From Candidatus Gastranaerophilales bacterium (GTDB lineage Bacteria; Cyanobacteriota; Vampirovibrionia; Gastranaerophilales; Gastranaerophilaceae), in contig CALVAA010000001.1 of the NCBI GenBank assembly GCA_944325315.1, forward strand, positions 1 through 64,000: a stretch of DNA of 64,000 bases. The letters are read 5' to 3'. A model generated the notes under the pieces. That model worked only from the letters and a program-made list of their open reading frames with translations. It was not told where the DNA came from and searched no databases. Position numbers and translations under genes: made by a program. Positions 28,614-36,241 of the stretch are shown here, piece after piece. Each line of letters starts with the position of its first letter. Position 1 is the stretch's first letter.

Positions 28614-28681
28614 ACCGTCAATTCTACTTAATTGTTTTATGTTATGATTTTATCATATTTATTATTTTGAGGCTAAGATTA

Positions 28682-29734
28682 ATGGAAAAGATACAGATTA
28701 AAATAGGAAATGTTCCGATAGGAAAAGGCGCACCTGTTTCGATACAATCAATGACAAACACAAAAACAGATGACACAAATTCCACTTTAAGACAAATAGA
28801 ACAATTAGCACATGAAGGCTGTCAGATAATAAGACTGGCTGTTTTAAATAAAAACTGTGCTTATGCACTTAAAGAAATTGTCAAGTATTCCCCCATTCCA
28901 ACTGTAGCCGATATACACTTTGATTATCGTCTTGCAATAATTGCAATGGATATGGGGATTAATGCTCTCAGAATAAACCCCGGAAATATCGGAAATATTG
29001 AGCATACTAAACTTGTTGTAAAAAGAGCAAAAGAAGATAATATTCCAATAAGAATAGGGGTGAATGCCGGCTCATTAGAAAAAGATTTATATGAAAATAA
29101 CGAAATGGCTCTTGAAGATAAGATGATAGAATCTGCAATGCGTCACATAAAAATACTTGAAGATTTGGATTTTAATCTAATTAAAGTGTCGTTAAAGTCT
29201 TCTGATGTTATGACTACAATAAAAGCCTACAGAAAAATGTATGAAAAAATACCATACCCTTTACACGTGGGTTTAACTGAAGCAGGAACTTTAAGGGGCG
29301 GTTTAATAAAATCTTCTGTTGCAATAGGGGCACTTCTTTCAGAAGGCATAGGAGATACAATAAGAGTTTCTTTAACGGAAGATCCTATTGAAGAAGTTAA
29401 AGCTGCAAAAGAAATACTTAAAACATTGGGCATAAGAAAACAAGGGGTTAATTTTATTTCTTGTCCTACTTGCGGCAGAACACAGATTGATTTAATCGGT
29501 TTAGCGAAAAAAGTGGAAGAAAGATTTGCAAATTTGGATTGTCCGATAACAATTGCAACTATGGGCTGCCCCGTAAATGGTCCAAAAGAAGCAAAAAATG
29601 CTGACTATGGTATAGCAGGAGCAATAGGCGAGGGGTATATCTTTAAAAAAGGAGAGATGATAAAAAAAGTTCCCCAAGAAAACCTTTTGGATGAATTTGA
29701 AGCAATAATTAAAAAAGATTTAAATATAAATTAA
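28682..29734 (+). CDS. ispG: 4-hydroxy-3-methylbut-2-enyl diphosphate synthase (flavodoxin/ferredoxin)
   Basis: A 350-residue IspG, the penultimate MEP-pathway enzyme making HMBPP for isoprenoids. The TIM-barrel part has SIQSMTNTKTDDTNST and TVADIHFDYRLA. The 4Fe-4S ligands are in ISCPTCGRTQ and near GCPVNGPKEAKNADYG. The length fits the compact bacterial form. I start at ATG 28682, preceded by GAGG; five codons further upstream are open only via TTG. A MEP pathway fits an obligate anaerobe and the undecaprenyl demand of the nearby wall genes. Confidence 0.95.
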   Translation: MEKIQIKIGNVPIGKGAPVSIQSMTNTKTDDTNSTLRQIEQLAHEGCQIIRLAVLNKNCAYALKEIVKYSPIPTVADIHFDYRLAIIAMDMGINALRINPGNIGNIEHTKLVVKRAKEDNIPIRIGVNAGSLEKDLYENNEMALEDKMIESAMRHIKILEDLDFNLIKVSLKSSDVMTTIKAYRKMYEKIPYPLHVGLTEAGTLRGGLIKSSVAIGALLSEGIGDTIRVSLTEDPIEEVKAAKEILKTLGIRKQGVNFISCPTCGRTQIDLIGLAKKVEERFANLDCPITIATMGCPVNGPKEAKNADYGIAGAIGEGYIFKKGEMIKKVPQENLLDEFEAIIKKDLNIN

Positions 29735-29766: not shown

Positions 29767-29803
29767 ATTGTATAAGATTAGTGCTAATAGTATAGGGGAA
29801 ATA

Positions 29804-30163
29804 ATGAAAAAAATATTGGTTTTATCTTTGTCTTTTCTGTTTGCTCAAGGGATAGCAAATGCTTATATAGATGGAAACAGGACAAGTGACATTGATGTTT
29901 TAAGGTCGATGGGCTACAGTGAAAGTGCTTTAAGGGTTGTTGACACCACAAGGGCAATGCATTCGGGTATTATTGGAAATTATCAAAGATATTACAGTCC
30001 AAAGAAAAAAGGTGCATATACTATTTTAAAAGAGTATGTTGATCCTATACAGGAAGATGCTCAATTCGGAGAGCATGAGATTAACTTTACTAATTCCTGG
30101 TTAGGTGATGAGCCGCCTAATGCATTAAGATATGTTGAAAATGCTCCTGTTGAAAATCTGTAA
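29804..30163 (+). CDS. Small secreted protein of unknown function
   Basis: A 119-residue protein with a clear signal peptide (KK, a hydrophobic stretch LVLSLSFLFAQ, cut near ANA-YI). The mature part includes DVLRSMGYSESALRVVDTTR and YQRYYSPKKKGAYTILKEYVDPIQEDAQFGEHEIN in adjoining stretches. I do not recognise it. ATG 29804 follows AGGGGAAATA. A consensus promoter is just upstream and a terminator about 40 bases downstream, so it is a monocistronic gene. Its end overlaps the convergent nuoN-like gene by 39 bases. Confidence 0.78.
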   Translation: MKKILVLSLSFLFAQGIANAYIDGNRTSDIDVLRSMGYSESALRVVDTTRAMHSGIIGNYQRYYSPKKKGAYTILKEYVDPIQEDAQFGEHEINFTNSWLGDEPPNALRYVENAPVENL

Positions 30164-31564
30164 AAATGTTGAAACTATTAAGATTATAAATACAAAATAA
30201 CAAACAGCGTAATTAAGCGCTGTTTTTTTATGAAAGGAATCTATTTTTCTTTTTTTATTTATACTGTAGCATTGTTGAATTAAGTTAACAGAATTGATTA
30301 GTATTAAAACATTTGCAATGACAGCTATGGAAATAAAATATATTGCAGTGTTGTCAAAAACGTATATTTCTTTTAATATATCCAGATTTAAAATTAAGAT
30401 TCCGCAGGGTATAACATTGGTTATGATTAATAAAAAAAAGGCGGTTAAAAATGCAAAGAAGCGATTGTTTAAAAATATGCCTTTAAAAGTTGAAAAACTT
30501 ACTTTATTGCTTTTAAGGTTGATTTTTAAGATAATGCACAAAGAATACAGGCAAATTAGCGTGAAACTGTTTAAAAACATTAATTTTAAGCAAGTATTTT
30601 GGCTGATTCCAAAAAGAAGCGCAGACAATAAAAAAGCACTGTAGCAAAGTGAAATGTTTGCAAAAAAGTTTATGATATTTTTGGTTTTAAAAACCCTAAT
30701 TGCACTGGTTAATAAGACAGAACTCAGAAAAACAAGTAAACTCAAGGTATGTATTTCGTTTGTGCAACCAAAGATTAAAAGAGCTTTTGTGTAGGCGATA
30801 AAACCAATTAAAGGCAAAAAGCAAAATAATAAAATTGCGCATGGAAAGTTTGTTTTATAATGGCGTCCTTGAGTGTAGTTAAATATAGGAAAAATTCCGA
30901 TTTTAGCAAAAAAGGAGCAACTTAAACAAACAAGAATAATGTCTGATTGGACTTGGTTATTTAATATTAAACTTAAAAAATAAAAACACAAAAATAAAAT
31001 ATCAACACATATGCTTTTTGAAATAAAGTCTGTATCATATATATCATCTTTCCTTATTCTCATATTTGAACCGTATTTATATATTGAATAGGCAATAATG
31101 CTAATAAGCAGGTATGAGATAAAGTAGTTTTGGATTTGTATTAAAAAAGAAGATAATAATGCAATAAAAAGCAGTATTGAATTTATAAGTGGCGTTTTAA
31201 ATCTTGCTTTTCTTACAACTTTATAATTAATAACAATGAACATAATAAAGAAAATATTCACTATAAATTGTATTAGAAGTGTTTTTTGGCTAAAAATTAA
31301 AAAACCGTTAAATAAATTGAAGTCAAATTTAGGGAAAAAAACCCGGCTTTTAATATATATCCCTCCCAAAATCAAAGATGAGACACTAAAAACAATTGTA
31401 GTTATAAAATCTGATAATCTTTTTATATTTAATTTGCGTTTTAAAAAGATAAATATAAAAAGATTGAAAACAATCCCTAAAATATAAAAAATATTAAATG
31501 AAAGATAAGAAAGCAATTCCGTTTCAGTAATTTCATTATTTAAATTTAAAATCAAATTTTCCAT
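30125..31564 (-). CDS. Divergent NuoN-like proton-channel subunit
   Basis: A 479-residue, about 14-segment membrane protein of the NuoL/M/N-MrpA/D superfamily, by position and general pattern closest to NuoN. The key broken-helix lysine seems kept in FFAKIGIFPIFNYTQ, which corresponds to F-K-I-x-x-V-P-F-H in NuoN. Most other family signatures are worn: the usual glutamate of helix 5 is not obvious. It is third in a minus-strand trio, two bases after the NuoM-like gene. Its last part overlaps the convergent small secreted gene. Proton or cation movement is likely; the partners are unknown. Confidence 0.65.
   Translation of the reverse strand: MENLILNLNNEITETELLSYLSFNIFYILGIVFNLFIFIFLKRKLNIKRLSDFITTIVFSVSSLILGGIYIKSRVFFPKFDFNLFNGFLIFSQKTLLIQFIVNIFFIMFIVINYKVVRKARFKTPLINSILLFIALLSSFLIQIQNYFISYLLISIIAYSIYKYGSNMRIRKDDIYDTDFISKSICVDILFLCFYFLSLILNNQVQSDIILVCLSCSFFAKIGIFPIFNYTQGRHYKTNFPCAILLFCFLPLIGFIAYTKALLIFGCTNEIHTLSLLVFLSSVLLTSAIRVFKTKNIINFFANISLCYSAFLLSALLFGISQNTCLKLMFLNSFTLICLYSLCIILKINLKSNKVSFSTFKGIFLNNRFFAFLTAFFLLIITNVIPCGILILNLDILKEIYVFDNTAIYFISIAVIANVLILINSVNLIQQCYSINKKRKIDSFHKKTALNYAVCYFVFIILIVSTFLQIFNRSIFNIS
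30203..30224 (+). terminator. Rho-independent terminator
   Basis: AACAGCG / CGCTGTT stem (7 bp) with an 8-base loop and a following run of T. It ends the message from 29804-30163 and lies within the C-terminal codons of the opposite-strand NuoN-like gene. Confidence 0.7.
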
Positions 31565-31566
31565 AC

Positions 31567-32994
31567 TTAAAATTCTCCAACCCCGTAAGTTAAATTAACA
31601 GAATCAAAAATATATTGAGGATACAAGCTTATTATTATAAGTGCCAAAGTAAGAATAACAAAAGCAACAAGTTGATGATTTGCAAGTTGAATTGTGTTTT
31701 TTTGTTTTGTGTCTGACTCAATTAAAATTTTATAAATCATATTTAAAAATGCAAGTGCAACTCCAAAGCTTGCAAAAGCTAAACAATAAGGTGCAAAAGT
31801 CAGGGTGAATGATTCAAAATCTATTGAAAAAATTGAAATAAGACTAATTGTATTTCCCCAAAATAATGAAAACGGGGGAATTTTTACAAGATTCAAAAGG
31901 CAAAAACATGTAAAAAATTGAGTCAGTTTTGTTTTGTCATTGATTTTTGAAAAGTCTTCAATGTTATCGCTTTTATTAAATTCTTTTAAAATAATAAAAA
32001 TTAAATACGCAAGATAAATTGAAATTGAAAAGGCAAAAACATTATAGCCAAGCGCTTTAATATTAATTTCATTAAATGTAAATAAAGGTATGATTATTGA
32101 AGCGGATGTAATTATTGTCGCACTTTTCAAGAAATTAAATATATTTTTTTCTGAATATGTGAGAATTAAAAAATATAAAATATTAAAAATTAAATATATA
32201 ACAACATACTGCTGAATTTCGCAAAGGATATAGTCAAAGTTTAAGTATACTTTAATTAAAAGATAATTTCCCGTAATAAAAAACATAATTGAGCTAAAAG
32301 CGTTTATCAAAGGATTGTTTACGGTTTTAAAATTAAAAGGGATAAAATTTAATAATCTTATAGCTATTATCAAAAAGCCTAAAACCGCTAAAAATACGGA
32401 AGTATCAGATATGTTATAAAGGTTGTTAACTGCTGATGAAAAACCAAAGGAAATATCATTTACAATAAAATATCTGGCAAAATCAAAACAAATCAAAAAA
32501 GCAGATACCAAAACTACAAAAATATTTCCTTTTAAAATTGTTTTATAAGATTTTTTCCCTTGTTTGCTGTTAAAGCAAAAGTTTAAAAGATAATCCAGAA
32601 TAAAAATCCAAAATATTGCAGTCAAAATCAAAAATATATTATCCGAATACAAAACAAGGTTAACAAGCCCCAGGTAAAGAGCAACAGAGCTGTAGAAAAG
32701 TCTGTGAAGTTTTTTTACTATTGTTTTTGAAAAAATAGATGTGACAAGAACAATAAGTGAAATTAAAAATGAAAACAAAAGACAAAATCCGTCTGTTTTA
32801 AATGAAAAGCCTAAAAGTGAAAAAATGCTGTTCTGTTTTTCGAAAAGGGCAAAAAACGAAACAAATAATTGCAAAAAGGCAAAAGTGTTGAAAATCCGTC
32901 TTATATAAACAGGATTTTTTATGAAAGCAAACAGTGCAATAAATGCTGCAAAAATAAAAGGAAGGATAAGACTAAAAGCATTAATTATAAGCAT
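31567..32994 (-). CDS. Divergent NuoM-like proton-channel subunit
   Basis: A 475-residue, about 14-segment membrane protein, middle gene of the trio. The segment IAIRLLNFIPFNFKTVNNPL occupies the place of NuoM's A-V-K-x-P-x-x-P-x-H-x-W-L-P-D-A-H, with arginine where lysine is usual and no H-x-W-L. The usual F-W-E of helix 5 is replaced (IFWIFILDYLL). It overlaps the NuoL-like gene by ten bases and is two bases from the NuoN-like gene, matching the L-M-N order of nuo operons. The assignment rests on order, size and this alignment, so it is moderate. Confidence 0.62.
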   Translation of the reverse strand: MLIINAFSLILPFIFAAFIALFAFIKNPVYIRRIFNTFAFLQLFVSFFALFEKQNSIFSLLGFSFKTDGFCLLFSFLISLIVLVTSIFSKTIVKKLHRLFYSSVALYLGLVNLVLYSDNIFLILTAIFWIFILDYLLNFCFNSKQGKKSYKTILKGNIFVVLVSAFLICFDFARYFIVNDISFGFSSAVNNLYNISDTSVFLAVLGFLIIAIRLLNFIPFNFKTVNNPLINAFSSIMFFITGNYLLIKVYLNFDYILCEIQQYVVIYLIFNILYFLILTYSEKNIFNFLKSATIITSASIIIPLFTFNEINIKALGYNVFAFSISIYLAYLIFIILKEFNKSDNIEDFSKINDKTKLTQFFTCFCLLNLVKIPPFSLFWGNTISLISIFSIDFESFTLTFAPYCLAFASFGVALAFLNMIYKILIESDTKQKNTIQLANHQLVAFVILTLALIIISLYPQYIFDSVNLTYGVGEF

Positions 32995-34415
32995 TTAAAC
33001 CTCCCGAATAAAGCTATAAAAATTGACACAAGAGATATCAAAGCAAAAATTATCAGTATATTCCTTATATTTTTAATCGGGTTTTTTGATTTATTTTTAA
33101 TTATAAAAATGCCTCCAAGCGTTTCAACTGCTTTTAGAAGAACAAAAAACAGATTTTGAGTAATGTTTTTATCTATAAAACAAACTGTTTTATAGATTTT
33201 TTCAGGGATTAATTCAAACACGGAAATCTGGATTCTTTCAACAATAAACCCCTTTTGTATGTTGATGGTTCTTTTTTTAAGATTGGTTTTTTCTTTCATA
33301 AAAAGTGCAAAAAGTACAATAAAAATTAATAAATTTGCGCTTAAATATACAGGTAATACAATATTTTGATGAAATTTCAAAAAACCGAGTATAAAAATTG
33401 CTCCAATCATTGAGTTAATGTGTGCAAATATTATTTTTATATTTTTTTCAAAAAGAACCAAAACCGCCGAAATTATAACACTTATTAACAAATAAAGCTC
33501 AAAATACTTTAAATATTGACCCAAAAATTCCATCAAAAAAGAAAGTTTTAGAAATATAATAAGTGCAAAAATATTGTTAACAAAAGGCATTATTGATATA
33601 TAGATTAAATTTGACGCATTTGCAAAAAAACTGAAGTAAGCATTAAAAGGTATAATCGTAAACTTTATCAGAATTGCGGCTATAAAAGAAATCATTATAA
33701 TTTTAAATTCAAAAGAAGAGCTTATCCCGTATGTGTAACTGAACAGTATATTAAGTTGCGAATAGTCGAGCGTGTGTGAGTCTATATATTCTTTGGACAG
33801 TATTGCATATTTAAATAAAAGCAAAATTCCCATCAGAAGAGAAAAATCTCCAAGAAGACTGATTCTGTAGAATCTTGTTATATTATAATCGGCAGTATTT
33901 TTAAATATATCAAAATATGAAAAAATTAAAATCAGCACTCCCTGAATAAAAGCAAAGAAAAAGCTTTGAAAAAGGTTTGAAGACAGGATAAAAACATAAC
34001 TGTTAAAAGCAATCAAAGATAAAAAAGCGTAATATCTTTGTTTTGTAAACATAAATTGTTTTCTTTTTTTGAAAAACAACTTTGCAAATATTCCGATTAA
34101 AATAAAAGCAAAAGATGAAAAAATCAATGCCAATAAACAGTATTTATCGACGCTAAAACCAAAATCCAGGTTGAAAGTTTCGGTTTTAAAAAAAGTAAAC
34201 GAAAAATTGTTTGTAATTTGGGATTGCCCAAAAAGAAAATAACTTATCAAAAATGATAATAATGACAGTAAATTTAAAAAAATAAAGCCGTTGTTTAAAA
34301 CTATTTTATTTACAAAAGCAAGTTTTAATCTCGAAATTATAAGATAAAGTGCAAAAATGCCCGAAATTGAACAATTTGCCAAAACAGAATATAAAACTAG
34401 GTTATTCATATCCAT
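32985..34415 (-). CDS. Divergent NuoL-like proton-channel subunit
   Basis: A 476-residue membrane protein opening the trio. GFSVDKYCLLALIFSS and the segment YRISLLGDFSLLMGILLLF match the NuoL G-F-x-x-D and N-R-I-G-D-F/A signatures. LIKFTIIPFNAYFSFFANAS takes the place of K-S-A-Q-x-P-L-H-x-W-L-P-D-A-M, keeping the lysine. The helix-5 glutamate is missing (FIQGVLILIFSYF). The long amphipathic C-terminal arm of NuoL is short or absent; the tail has two late hydrophobic segments. No other complex I genes occur nearby. Confidence 0.65.
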   Translation of the reverse strand: MDMNNLVLYSVLANCSISGIFALYLIISRLKLAFVNKIVLNNGFIFLNLLSLLSFLISYFLFGQSQITNNFSFTFFKTETFNLDFGFSVDKYCLLALIFSSFAFILIGIFAKLFFKKRKQFMFTKQRYYAFLSLIAFNSYVFILSSNLFQSFFFAFIQGVLILIFSYFDIFKNTADYNITRFYRISLLGDFSLLMGILLLFKYAILSKEYIDSHTLDYSQLNILFSYTYGISSSFEFKIIMISFIAAILIKFTIIPFNAYFSFFANASNLIYISIMPFVNNIFALIIFLKLSFLMEFLGQYLKYFELYLLISVIISAVLVLFEKNIKIIFAHINSMIGAIFILGFLKFHQNIVLPVYLSANLLIFIVLFALFMKEKTNLKKRTINIQKGFIVERIQISVFELIPEKIYKTVCFIDKNITQNLFFVLLKAVETLGGIFIIKNKSKNPIKNIRNILIIFALISLVSIFIALFGRFKCL

Positions 34416-34531
34416 TTTACTATATTATATATTTTTTTAATTTAGTGCAATATTTATTTAGACTATATTTATTTTCAATGTTTTTTTATATAAAATTGAA
34501 CTATAAATATTTTAGGAGACAAAAATTTATT

Positions 34532-36241
34532 ATGAAAATGTCAAAACTTTTTGTGCAGACTTTAAGAGAATTCCCAAATGATGCAGAGGCAGTTTCGCAC
34601 AAGCTTTTAGTGAGAGCGGGATTTATAAAAAAACTTTCAAACGGCATATATACATACTTGCCGTTGGCACAAAAAGTCTTGAGTAAAATTTCAAATATTA
34701 TAAGAGAAGAAATGAATGCTTCGGGTGCTCAGGAATTATTAATGCCTTTTGTGCAACCCAGTGAAGTTTGGCAAAAATCCGGAAGATGGCAGGTATACGG
34801 CAAAGAACTTTTAAGATGCAAAGACAGACACGACAACGAAATGTGCCTTGCTCCAACCCATGAAGAAGTTGTGACAAGCGTTGTTTCGGATATAGTAAGT
34901 TCTTATAAACAGCTCCCTTTAAATGTTTACCAGATTCAGACAAAATTTAGAGATGAAATTCGTCCCCGTTTCGGCCTTTTAAGAGGGCGGGAATTTATAA
35001 TGAAGGATGCGTACTCTTTTCACACTTCCCAAGAGGATTTGGATAGAGAATATGAAGTTATGGCAAAAACTTATACAAAAATCTTTTCAAGATGCGGTCT
35101 TGAAACAAAATCTGTCCAATCGGATTCAGGCGCTATAGGCGGAAGTGTTTCCCATGAGTATATGGTTTTGGTTGATACTTCAACAGGTGAAAATGATGTA
35201 TTTTATTGCGACAACTGTTCATATAGCGCTAATTCAAACCATGCCGAATCAATTTTGCCTGTTGAAATAACAGACGGCGGCTTCAGTGAAGAAAAAATCG
35301 TAGATACGCCTGATGTTAAAACAATAGATGAATTGGCAAAATTTTTAAATGTGAATCCAAACTGCATTTTAAAAGCATTAGCATATATTGCTGATTCAAA
35401 ACCTGTTATTGTAATGATAAGAGGAGATAAAGAAGCTGAAGAGACAAAACTTTTGAATGCATTAAATGCTCTTGAAATTCGTCCTATGGAAAACACTGAA
35501 ATTGAACAATATTTAAATTCATACCCCGGTTTTATATCTTATAGAAATGTTGATAAATCAAAAGTTAAAGTCCTTTTTGATAAATCTTCTCAAGGGATGA
35601 AGAATTTTGTTTTAGGAGCTGATATTAAAGATAAACATATAGTAGGTGCTAATTTAGAAGAAAATATAGAATTTGTTGATGTTTCTTTGGTTAAAGAAGG
35701 GGAATTTTGTCCGGTTTGCAAAAAACCCTTAAAAGTTACAAAAGGTATAGAAGTAGGTAATATTTTTCAATTGGGAACAAAGTATTCTAAGCCGATGAAT
35801 GCCTGTTATACAGATAGCGAAGGGCAATTAAAGCCGTATATTATGGGCTGCTATGGAATTGGTGTTTCAAGAACAATGGCTGCTGCTGTTGAAAAATATC
35901 ACGATGATTTTGGTATAATCTGGCCCGTTGAAATTGCGCCTTATGTTGTTGATATAGTTCCCGTAAACATTGACGATGGATTACAGTCTAAAGTCGCATA
36001 TGAGCTTTATGATAAGCTTAATGCAAGCGGAGTTGAAACAATAATAGACGATAGATCGGATAGAGCCGGCGTAAAATTTAAAGATGCGGATTTAATCGGC
36101 TTTCCTATAAGAATCACGGTAGGGAAAACAATAAATGAAGGACTTGTGGAATTTAAAACAAGAATAGACAACACTGTTGTTAAACTGACATTAGATGAGG
36201 CAATAGAAAAAGTTTTAAAATATGCCAAAAAATCCTCTTAG
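34532..36241 (+). CDS. proS: Prolyl-tRNA synthetase, bacterial type
   Basis: A 569-residue ProRS of the bacterial type, with a class II core (RAGFIKKLSNGIYTYLPLAQKVL, TKFRDEIRPRFGLLRGREFIMKDAYSFH), the INS editing domain between motifs 2 and 3 (about 230-390, with GxVSHEY-like GGSVSHEYMVL and LKALAYIADSKPVIVMIRGD), motif 3 (YGIGVSRTMAAAVE) and a C-terminal anticodon-binding domain. I start at ATG 34532, after AGGAGAC; the frame is open further upstream, but those codons are not family sequence. Its end overlaps the amidotransferase gene by 20 bases. Confidence 0.95.
   Translation: MKMSKLFVQTLREFPNDAEAVSHKLLVRAGFIKKLSNGIYTYLPLAQKVLSKISNIIREEMNASGAQELLMPFVQPSEVWQKSGRWQVYGKELLRCKDRHDNEMCLAPTHEEVVTSVVSDIVSSYKQLPLNVYQIQTKFRDEIRPRFGLLRGREFIMKDAYSFHTSQEDLDREYEVMAKTYTKIFSRCGLETKSVQSDSGAIGGSVSHEYMVLVDTSTGENDVFYCDNCSYSANSNHAESILPVEITDGGFSEEKIVDTPDVKTIDELAKFLNVNPNCILKALAYIADSKPVIVMIRGDKEAEETKLLNALNALEIRPMENTEIEQYLNSYPGFISYRNVDKSKVKVLFDKSSQGMKNFVLGADIKDKHIVGANLEENIEFVDVSLVKEGEFCPVCKKPLKVTKGIEVGNIFQLGTKYSKPMNACYTDSEGQLKPYIMGCYGIGVSRTMAAAVEKYHDDFGIIWPVEIAPYVVDIVPVNIDDGLQSKVAYELYDKLNASGVETIIDDRSDRAGVKFKDADLIGFPIRITVGKTINEGLVEFKTRIDNTVVKLTLDEAIEKVLKYAKKSS

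Follow-up and report, generated by a model that had tools for sequence, protein, structure and literature searches.

We analyzed a 64,000-nucleotide stretch of DNA (the window) from Candidatus Gastranaerophilales bacterium (GenBank assembly GCA_944325315.1, contig CALVAA010000001.1, positions 1 to 64,000), in which three consecutive minus-strand genes between ispG and proS proved to be highly diverged forms of nuoL, nuoM and nuoN. It is virtually certain that this trio is what remains, in place, of an 11-gene nuoABCDHIJKLMN operon. As to what the trio does, we lean on balance towards a selected nuo remnant, that is, a redox-free L-M-N array that would pass ions. The genus consists of uncultured gut bacteria with a kinship to cyanobacteria. 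The source genome is 1.81 Mb in size and 97% complete, and the named relatives that also carry the trio are Candidatus Gastranaerophilales bacteria, among them the metagenome-assembled genome RUG14156. The locus is laid out as follows (TM, transmembrane helix; ORF, open reading frame).

28667..29734, plus strand: ispG, the fixed left neighbour and a marker of the ancestral nuo site
29768..30163, plus strand: small conserved ORF between ispG and nuoN, retained in congener G027, where the trio is lost
30125..31564, minus strand: nuoN remnant, 479 residues
31567..32994, minus strand: nuoM remnant, 475 residues
32985..34415, minus strand: nuoL remnant, 476 residues, with TM1-11, a lateral helix and the last TM; TM12-15 deleted
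34416..34531, no strand: gap of 116 bp between nuoL and proS, the site of nuoA-K in genome G086 and of nuoJ,K in genus g52
34532..36241, plus strand: proS, the fixed right neighbour in genera g53, g52 and the window genus

The ancestry of the trio is settled by a series of states at this one site, running from a complete operon through N to J and N,M,L to an empty locus. In G086 (genus g53, same family; locus L191), the order is ispG, small ORF, a 355-residue ORF, nuoN,M,L,K,J,I,H,D,C,B,A and proS, with the operon complete. Genus g52 has ispG, small ORF, nuoN,M,L,K,J and proS wherever a contig spans the locus (12 loci read, with J or K below the calling threshold in a few). The window genus (g1) retains only nuoN,M,L between the small ORF and proS, and in G027 ispG, small ORF and proS are adjacent, all nuo genes being gone. 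Junctions of ispG with the nuoN of a complete operon are also found elsewhere in the family (L171, L174, L190) and in another family of the order (L122, L130). The series shows the order of loss: A-I went first, and the later loss of J and K was accompanied by that of helices 12-15 of NuoL. The original prediction, made from the window alone, had considered a fast-evolving complex I membrane arm split from its other genes; the ancestry was right but the splitting was not, as the other genes have been deleted in place, as far as searched. The complete G086 operon, at the ancestral site, already lacks several relay residues (E144, K265 and E407 of NuoM; E157, E216 and E218 of NuoH), and perhaps its complex I still assembles, without normal pumping.

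Resemblance of the three proteins to NuoL, NuoM and NuoN, proposed at the outset, is real but faint. None of them matches a complex I family in Pfam. M matches NuoM of NCBIfam over its full length (7.9e-7), L matches NuoL over its N-terminal part only (2.3e-6), and N has no match in either Pfam or NCBIfam. Because such matches were absent or weak, naming the trio needed synteny and profiles. Profile comparison with the subunits of g52, of complete operons and of the order as a whole gave a clean L-L, M-M, N-N diagonal, in which own-subunit scores were 109-204 and those with any other subunit no higher than 111; the own subunit was always best, by a wide margin (L-L, 113-185 versus <27; M-M, 174-204 versus 9-111). 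The AlphaFold2 model of N (predicted local distance difference test score, pLDDT, 85.6) has NuoN/ND2/NdhB chains as its top-ranked fold matches, E. coli NuoN aligning with a Z score of 38.1 over 440 residues. For the model of L (pLDDT 79.7), NuoL-type chains align over ∼380-440 residues with Z scores of 30-36. The phylogeny placed N of the window genus with NuoN of g52 (Shimodaira-Hasegawa-like approximate likelihood ratio test, SH-aLRT, 98) and with g53 (88). L and M were not placed, and it is synteny and the profile matrix that support their orthology.

The trio is clearly constrained by purifying selection and is not a set of pseudogenes. It is present in 25 of the 28 sampled members of the genus, with all three reading frames open in 25 species, and in each of the 24 congener loci read it lies between ispG and proS, although contig ends hide one neighbour in a few. 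Median pairwise identity within the genus is 38-44% for the trio compared to 82-84% for proS and ispG. Across the ten closest pairs, the ratio of nonsynonymous to synonymous substitution rates (dN/dS) is 0.08-0.17 for L, 0.12-0.23 for M and 0.12-0.20 for N, versus 0.03-0.06 for proS. We consider it very likely that the trio is under selection and made into protein. One pair of genomes stands apart: between G003 (L066:5600-8400) and G009 (L071), nucleotide identity drops from ∼93% to 73-80% across most of M and N, the flanks being near-identical, and the synonymous rate (dS) rises to 0.82-1.25 from 0.33-0.36, which suggests allelic replacement by recombination.

The redox and linking subunits have disappeared from the locus. 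NuoA (PF00507) was found in none of the 28 genus members, while most relatives at the level of the order were positive. For the window's own genome, content was judged by targeted searches and the stretches around their matches. The sole match to PF00346 (NuoD-like) is the 49-kDa protein of an operon of the energy-converting hydrogenase-related (Ehr) type, with NuoB, C and I lying outside the genome-wide search, and PF00146 (NuoH-like) matched only within the same operon. Thus, in these searches, no normal nuo operon with an L, M and N of its own was found elsewhere. NuoJ and NuoK are absent as judged at the trio locus. MrpG (PF03334) was found in none of 24 genomes, with B. subtilis positive as a control. 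The other option first raised, a new cation-translocating module with other partners, may still hold, but no partner gene was found for the trio: its neighbours are proS and ispG, MrpG is absent, and co-occurrence with Ehr is loose.

Several features of the trio proteins bear on what they could still do.

33096..33257, minus strand: L residues 387-440, lateral (HL-type) amphipathic helix in the AlphaFold2 model, aligned to the E. coli NuoL C-terminus
33258..33296, minus strand: L residues 374-386, short linker replacing canonical TM12-TM15, including broken helix 12 with Lys399/Asp400
33663..33665, minus strand: Lys251 of L, basic residue of TM7 at the E. coli K229 position; Lys or Arg in 25/25 genus members
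32356..32358, minus strand: Arg213 of M, basic residue of TM7, one position from the E. coli K234 column; Lys or Arg in 25/25
30902..30904, minus strand: Lys221 of N, TM7 lysine corresponding to E. coli K217; Lys in 25/25

The model of L consists of TM1-11, an unbroken 54-residue helix (387-440) and a final helix (446-470). The deletion is evident from alignment gaps of g1 sequences against E. coli NuoL within 345-546, together with the helix count of the model. Complete operons show hardly any variation at the main relay residues. Across members of the window genus, the TM5 Glu is lost from L and M, and N has Asp or Glu in 23 of 25 members and Ser in the window; the TM8 Lys/His is lost from all three subunits; and the TM12 Lys/Glu falls within the deletion in L and is substituted in N and most M. 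The only relay residues kept throughout the genus are the TM7 basic residue of L, M and N and, in those 23 members, the TM5 acid of N. Genus g52 has likewise lost the NuoK glutamates, the TM5 Glu of L and M, and the TM8 residues, and keeps the TM7 Lys. Position 407 of M is Lys in g52 and g6 (Arg in three g52); an engineered NuoM E407K still pumps ∼75% of the protons (PMC9271201). The most conserved positions of L lie mainly in loops and helix ends. Much of this had been anticipated. A broken-helix lysine in L and N, replaced by arginine in M, corresponds to the three TM7 residues listed above; the loss of the helix-5 glutamate in L and M was borne out by the alignment, and extends to N in the window; and the H-x-W-L-P-D-A loop is indeed replaced in all three proteins.

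A second lineage has undergone a comparable reduction. Two genomes of genus g33 have nuoA,H,J,K,L,M,N and lack B, C, D and I; in these operons (L170:849-8175, L172:6307-13654), NuoA and NuoH are strongly diverged. Four genomes of genus g6 retain only nuoJ,K,L,M,N (L162:4645-9651, L163, L164, L165). Searches of these genomes for NuoD gave an Ehr-type match in G101 and nothing in G066 or in any g6 genome (four of four); complete-operon controls were positive. Purifying selection on the g6 quintet is strong (dN/dS 0.03-0.07 for G120/G303), and the L, M and N of g6 keep the TM5 Glu and the TM7 Lys/Arg. Because M and N of g33 and g6 fall apart from g52 in the trees, and N also apart from the window genus, the redox arm was lost at least twice. 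L of g6 (385-386 residues) lacks E. coli positions 297-553 and keeps the lateral-helix end. The middle of L was thus deleted independently in g1 and g6, and both times the C-terminal end was kept.

Given that the trio has been kept under selection though the redox half of the enzyme was deleted, it follows that it must do something else. If the genomes are representative, their gene content rules out a redox-driven pump: redox energy can no longer drive pumping once the arm that delivers it, the link subunits and most of the relay residues have been lost. The retained folds of the models and the lateral helix, kept twice, make it likely that L, M and N still form a complex, in which they would be arrayed next to one another, as in complex I, with the lateral helix of L as a clamp. 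In E. coli, NuoL with a truncated or lengthened lateral helix is impaired in production, stability or pumping (PMC3274701). Such a redox-free array could pass ions, most likely H+ or Na+, down their gradient or by exchange, and the helix-7 basic residue of each subunit may serve this passage. The retained residues and the precedent of the family point to ion passage as the use of the trio, a proposal to which we give slightly less than an even chance. The main alternative, within the reading of the trio as an L-M-N array, is a purely structural or regulatory role in the membrane.

A number of observations weigh against an ion-passing array. The second half-channel is missing entirely from L, and neither L nor M has the TM5 Glu that partners the TM7 basic residue, so no continuous path is evident. 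The conservation of L, mainly in loops and helix ends, is as compatible with assembly as it is with conduction. The combined L/M/N tree leaves L and M of the window genus unplaceable on long branches, and NuoJ and NuoK may lie at other sites in g1 genomes.

Another possibility, which we regard as unlikely, is that the reduced arm became an Mrp-like cation/proton antiporter working without redox energy, such that J,K,L,M,N of g52 and g6 would correspond to MrpA + MrpC + MrpD and the window trio would be a form reduced further. The kinship of these subunits with Mrp is established (PMC7419157 and PMC4938563), MrpD is among the fold matches of the L and N models (Z 30-35), and in g6, whose genes are strongly selected, all three of L, M and N retain the TM5 Glu and the TM7 Lys/Arg. 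An Mrp (CPA3) antiporter, with NuoL/M/N-type subunits that work without redox chemistry, would indeed be an analogous state. The trio, however, derives from complex I by loss, the 24 genomes contain no MrpG, and J and K, the latter the NuoK equivalent, are missing at the locus in the window genus. The NuoK glutamates are lost in both g52 and g6 (one Gln in g6), the TM8 Lys/His is mostly lost in the remnants, and TM12 is absent from L of g1 and g6. Membership in Mrp proper is ruled out by the absence of MrpG from these 24 genomes.

Less probable still is that the trio serves as a scaffold or accessory membrane arm of some other complex, most plausibly the Ehr enzyme encoded on contig 11. This Ehr/Hyf-like operon of six genes (L063:5770-12995) encodes the sole other complex I-like enzyme found in the genome, and it is present in 24 of the 28 genus members, including 22 of the 25 trio carriers. 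The likeness to this Ehr or group 4 hydrogenase membrane arm lies in its L-like and M-like subunits. Ehr nonetheless has these subunits of its own, at normal conservation, and the trio shares no operon with 49-kDa and 20-kDa subunits: it adjoins ispG and/or proS in the 24 congener loci read, with Ehr on another contig. The two also occur independently. G016 (99% complete), G009 and G013 have the trio without Ehr, G006 and G027 have Ehr without the trio, and in g6, J,K,L,M,N persist in genomes that encode no 49-kDa protein at all. Furthermore, identity between most congeners is ∼80% for the large subunit of Ehr, compared to ∼40% for the trio, which makes tight co-evolution unlikely. As an obligatory partner, Ehr is ruled out by the presence/absence pattern. 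The 49-kDa subunit seems, by eye, to lack Ni-binding cysteine motifs. The operon resembles the motif-less NiFe enzyme of gut Melainabacteria, which have an 11-subunit complex I and a six-subunit NiFe-type enzyme without hydrogen-binding motifs, and no linked electron transport chain (PMC3787301).

That the trio is a non-functional relic drifting towards loss is very improbable. The catalytic residues are eroded, evolution relative to ispG is about twice that of complete operons, G027 has lost the genes totally, and G010 has no trio. Against this, the three genes remain open in 25 species at ∼40% pairwise identity, their dN/dS (0.08-0.23) overlaps the range for nuoL, nuoM and nuoN of complete operons in other genera (0.05-0.21), and loops and charged residues are conserved. 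The description of the trio as worn therefore suits the catalytic residues but not the genes. That the trio came in by horizontal transfer, from a different complex I, an Mrp or a hydrogenase system, and has no tie to the family's ancestral nuo operon is scarcely credible: L and M do fall outside the NuoL and NuoM groups in the combined tree, on long branches, but the site, orientation and gene order between ispG and proS are those of the G086 operon and the g52 J-N remnant, N groups with g52 NuoN at an SH-aLRT of 98, and the profile diagonal is clean.

Two further systems invite comparison. The trio resembles the 11-subunit NDH-1 of Melainabacteria and Cyanobacteria (NuoA-D, H-N) by descent, with the same locus, gene order and strand, NuoL and NuoN folds and the lateral helix of L. 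It differs in having no redox subunits, no quinone/E-channel subunits A and H and no J or K at the locus, in the deletion of TM12-15 from L, and in the loss of most relay residues. Free-standing NuoL-like DabB, paired with DabA, is found in the DAB/MpsAB inorganic-carbon systems (cf. PMC13144422), which share with the trio a NuoL-like subunit outside complex I; no DabA-type partner adjoins the trio, however, and the trio keeps three different subunits.

Regarding the locus itself, gene order and protein lengths (475-479 residues) are as first described. The three genes had been said to overlap: the reading frames of L and M share 10 nt, but M and N are separated by 2 nt. It is also correct that no nuoA-K genes adjoin, as proS begins 116 bp upstream of L. 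The small ORF at 29768-30163 occurs at every one of the 24 congener loci read, as well as in g52; its 3′ end runs 39 bp into the end of N, and a terminator-like hairpin lies within N at 30202-30225. Scans of the window against Rfam and for tRNAs gave no matches, and no plasmid record matched. A promoter scan (47 matches versus 33 in shuffled AT-rich DNA) was not informative.

Complex I is normally regarded as a unit, with the membrane subunits considered useless without the electron-carrying arm. The complex I of the class Melainabacteria has been the subject of a phylogenetic study (PMC8235220). Nuo remnants lacking the redox part are not described in the open-licence literature that we consulted, including PMC8235220, PMC3787301 and, for selected terms, PMC12361115 on the distribution of complex I, although other journals may hold a description. 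The genera described here provide living intermediates, ordered by synteny, in which the enzyme has been dismantled from the redox end and L, M and N are still selected. They offer natural tests of whether antiporter-like subunits can move ions alone; of which relay residues are needed without drive, the TM8 Lys/His and NuoK glutamates eroding and the TM7 Lys/Arg being kept last; and of the purpose of the NuoL lateral helix, which outlives the deleted half of NuoL in two lineages. More tentatively, gut Gastranaerophilales may have released complex I membrane arms from the redox arm on two or more occasions, the freed arms (A,H,J,K,L,M,N; J,K,L,M,N; L,M,N) then becoming autonomous complexes that conduct or exchange ions, a possibility that we rate below ion passage by the trio itself. 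If true, such autonomous arms would reverse the usual scenario, in which antiporters gave rise to complex I, and would provide a natural series of minimal membrane arms.

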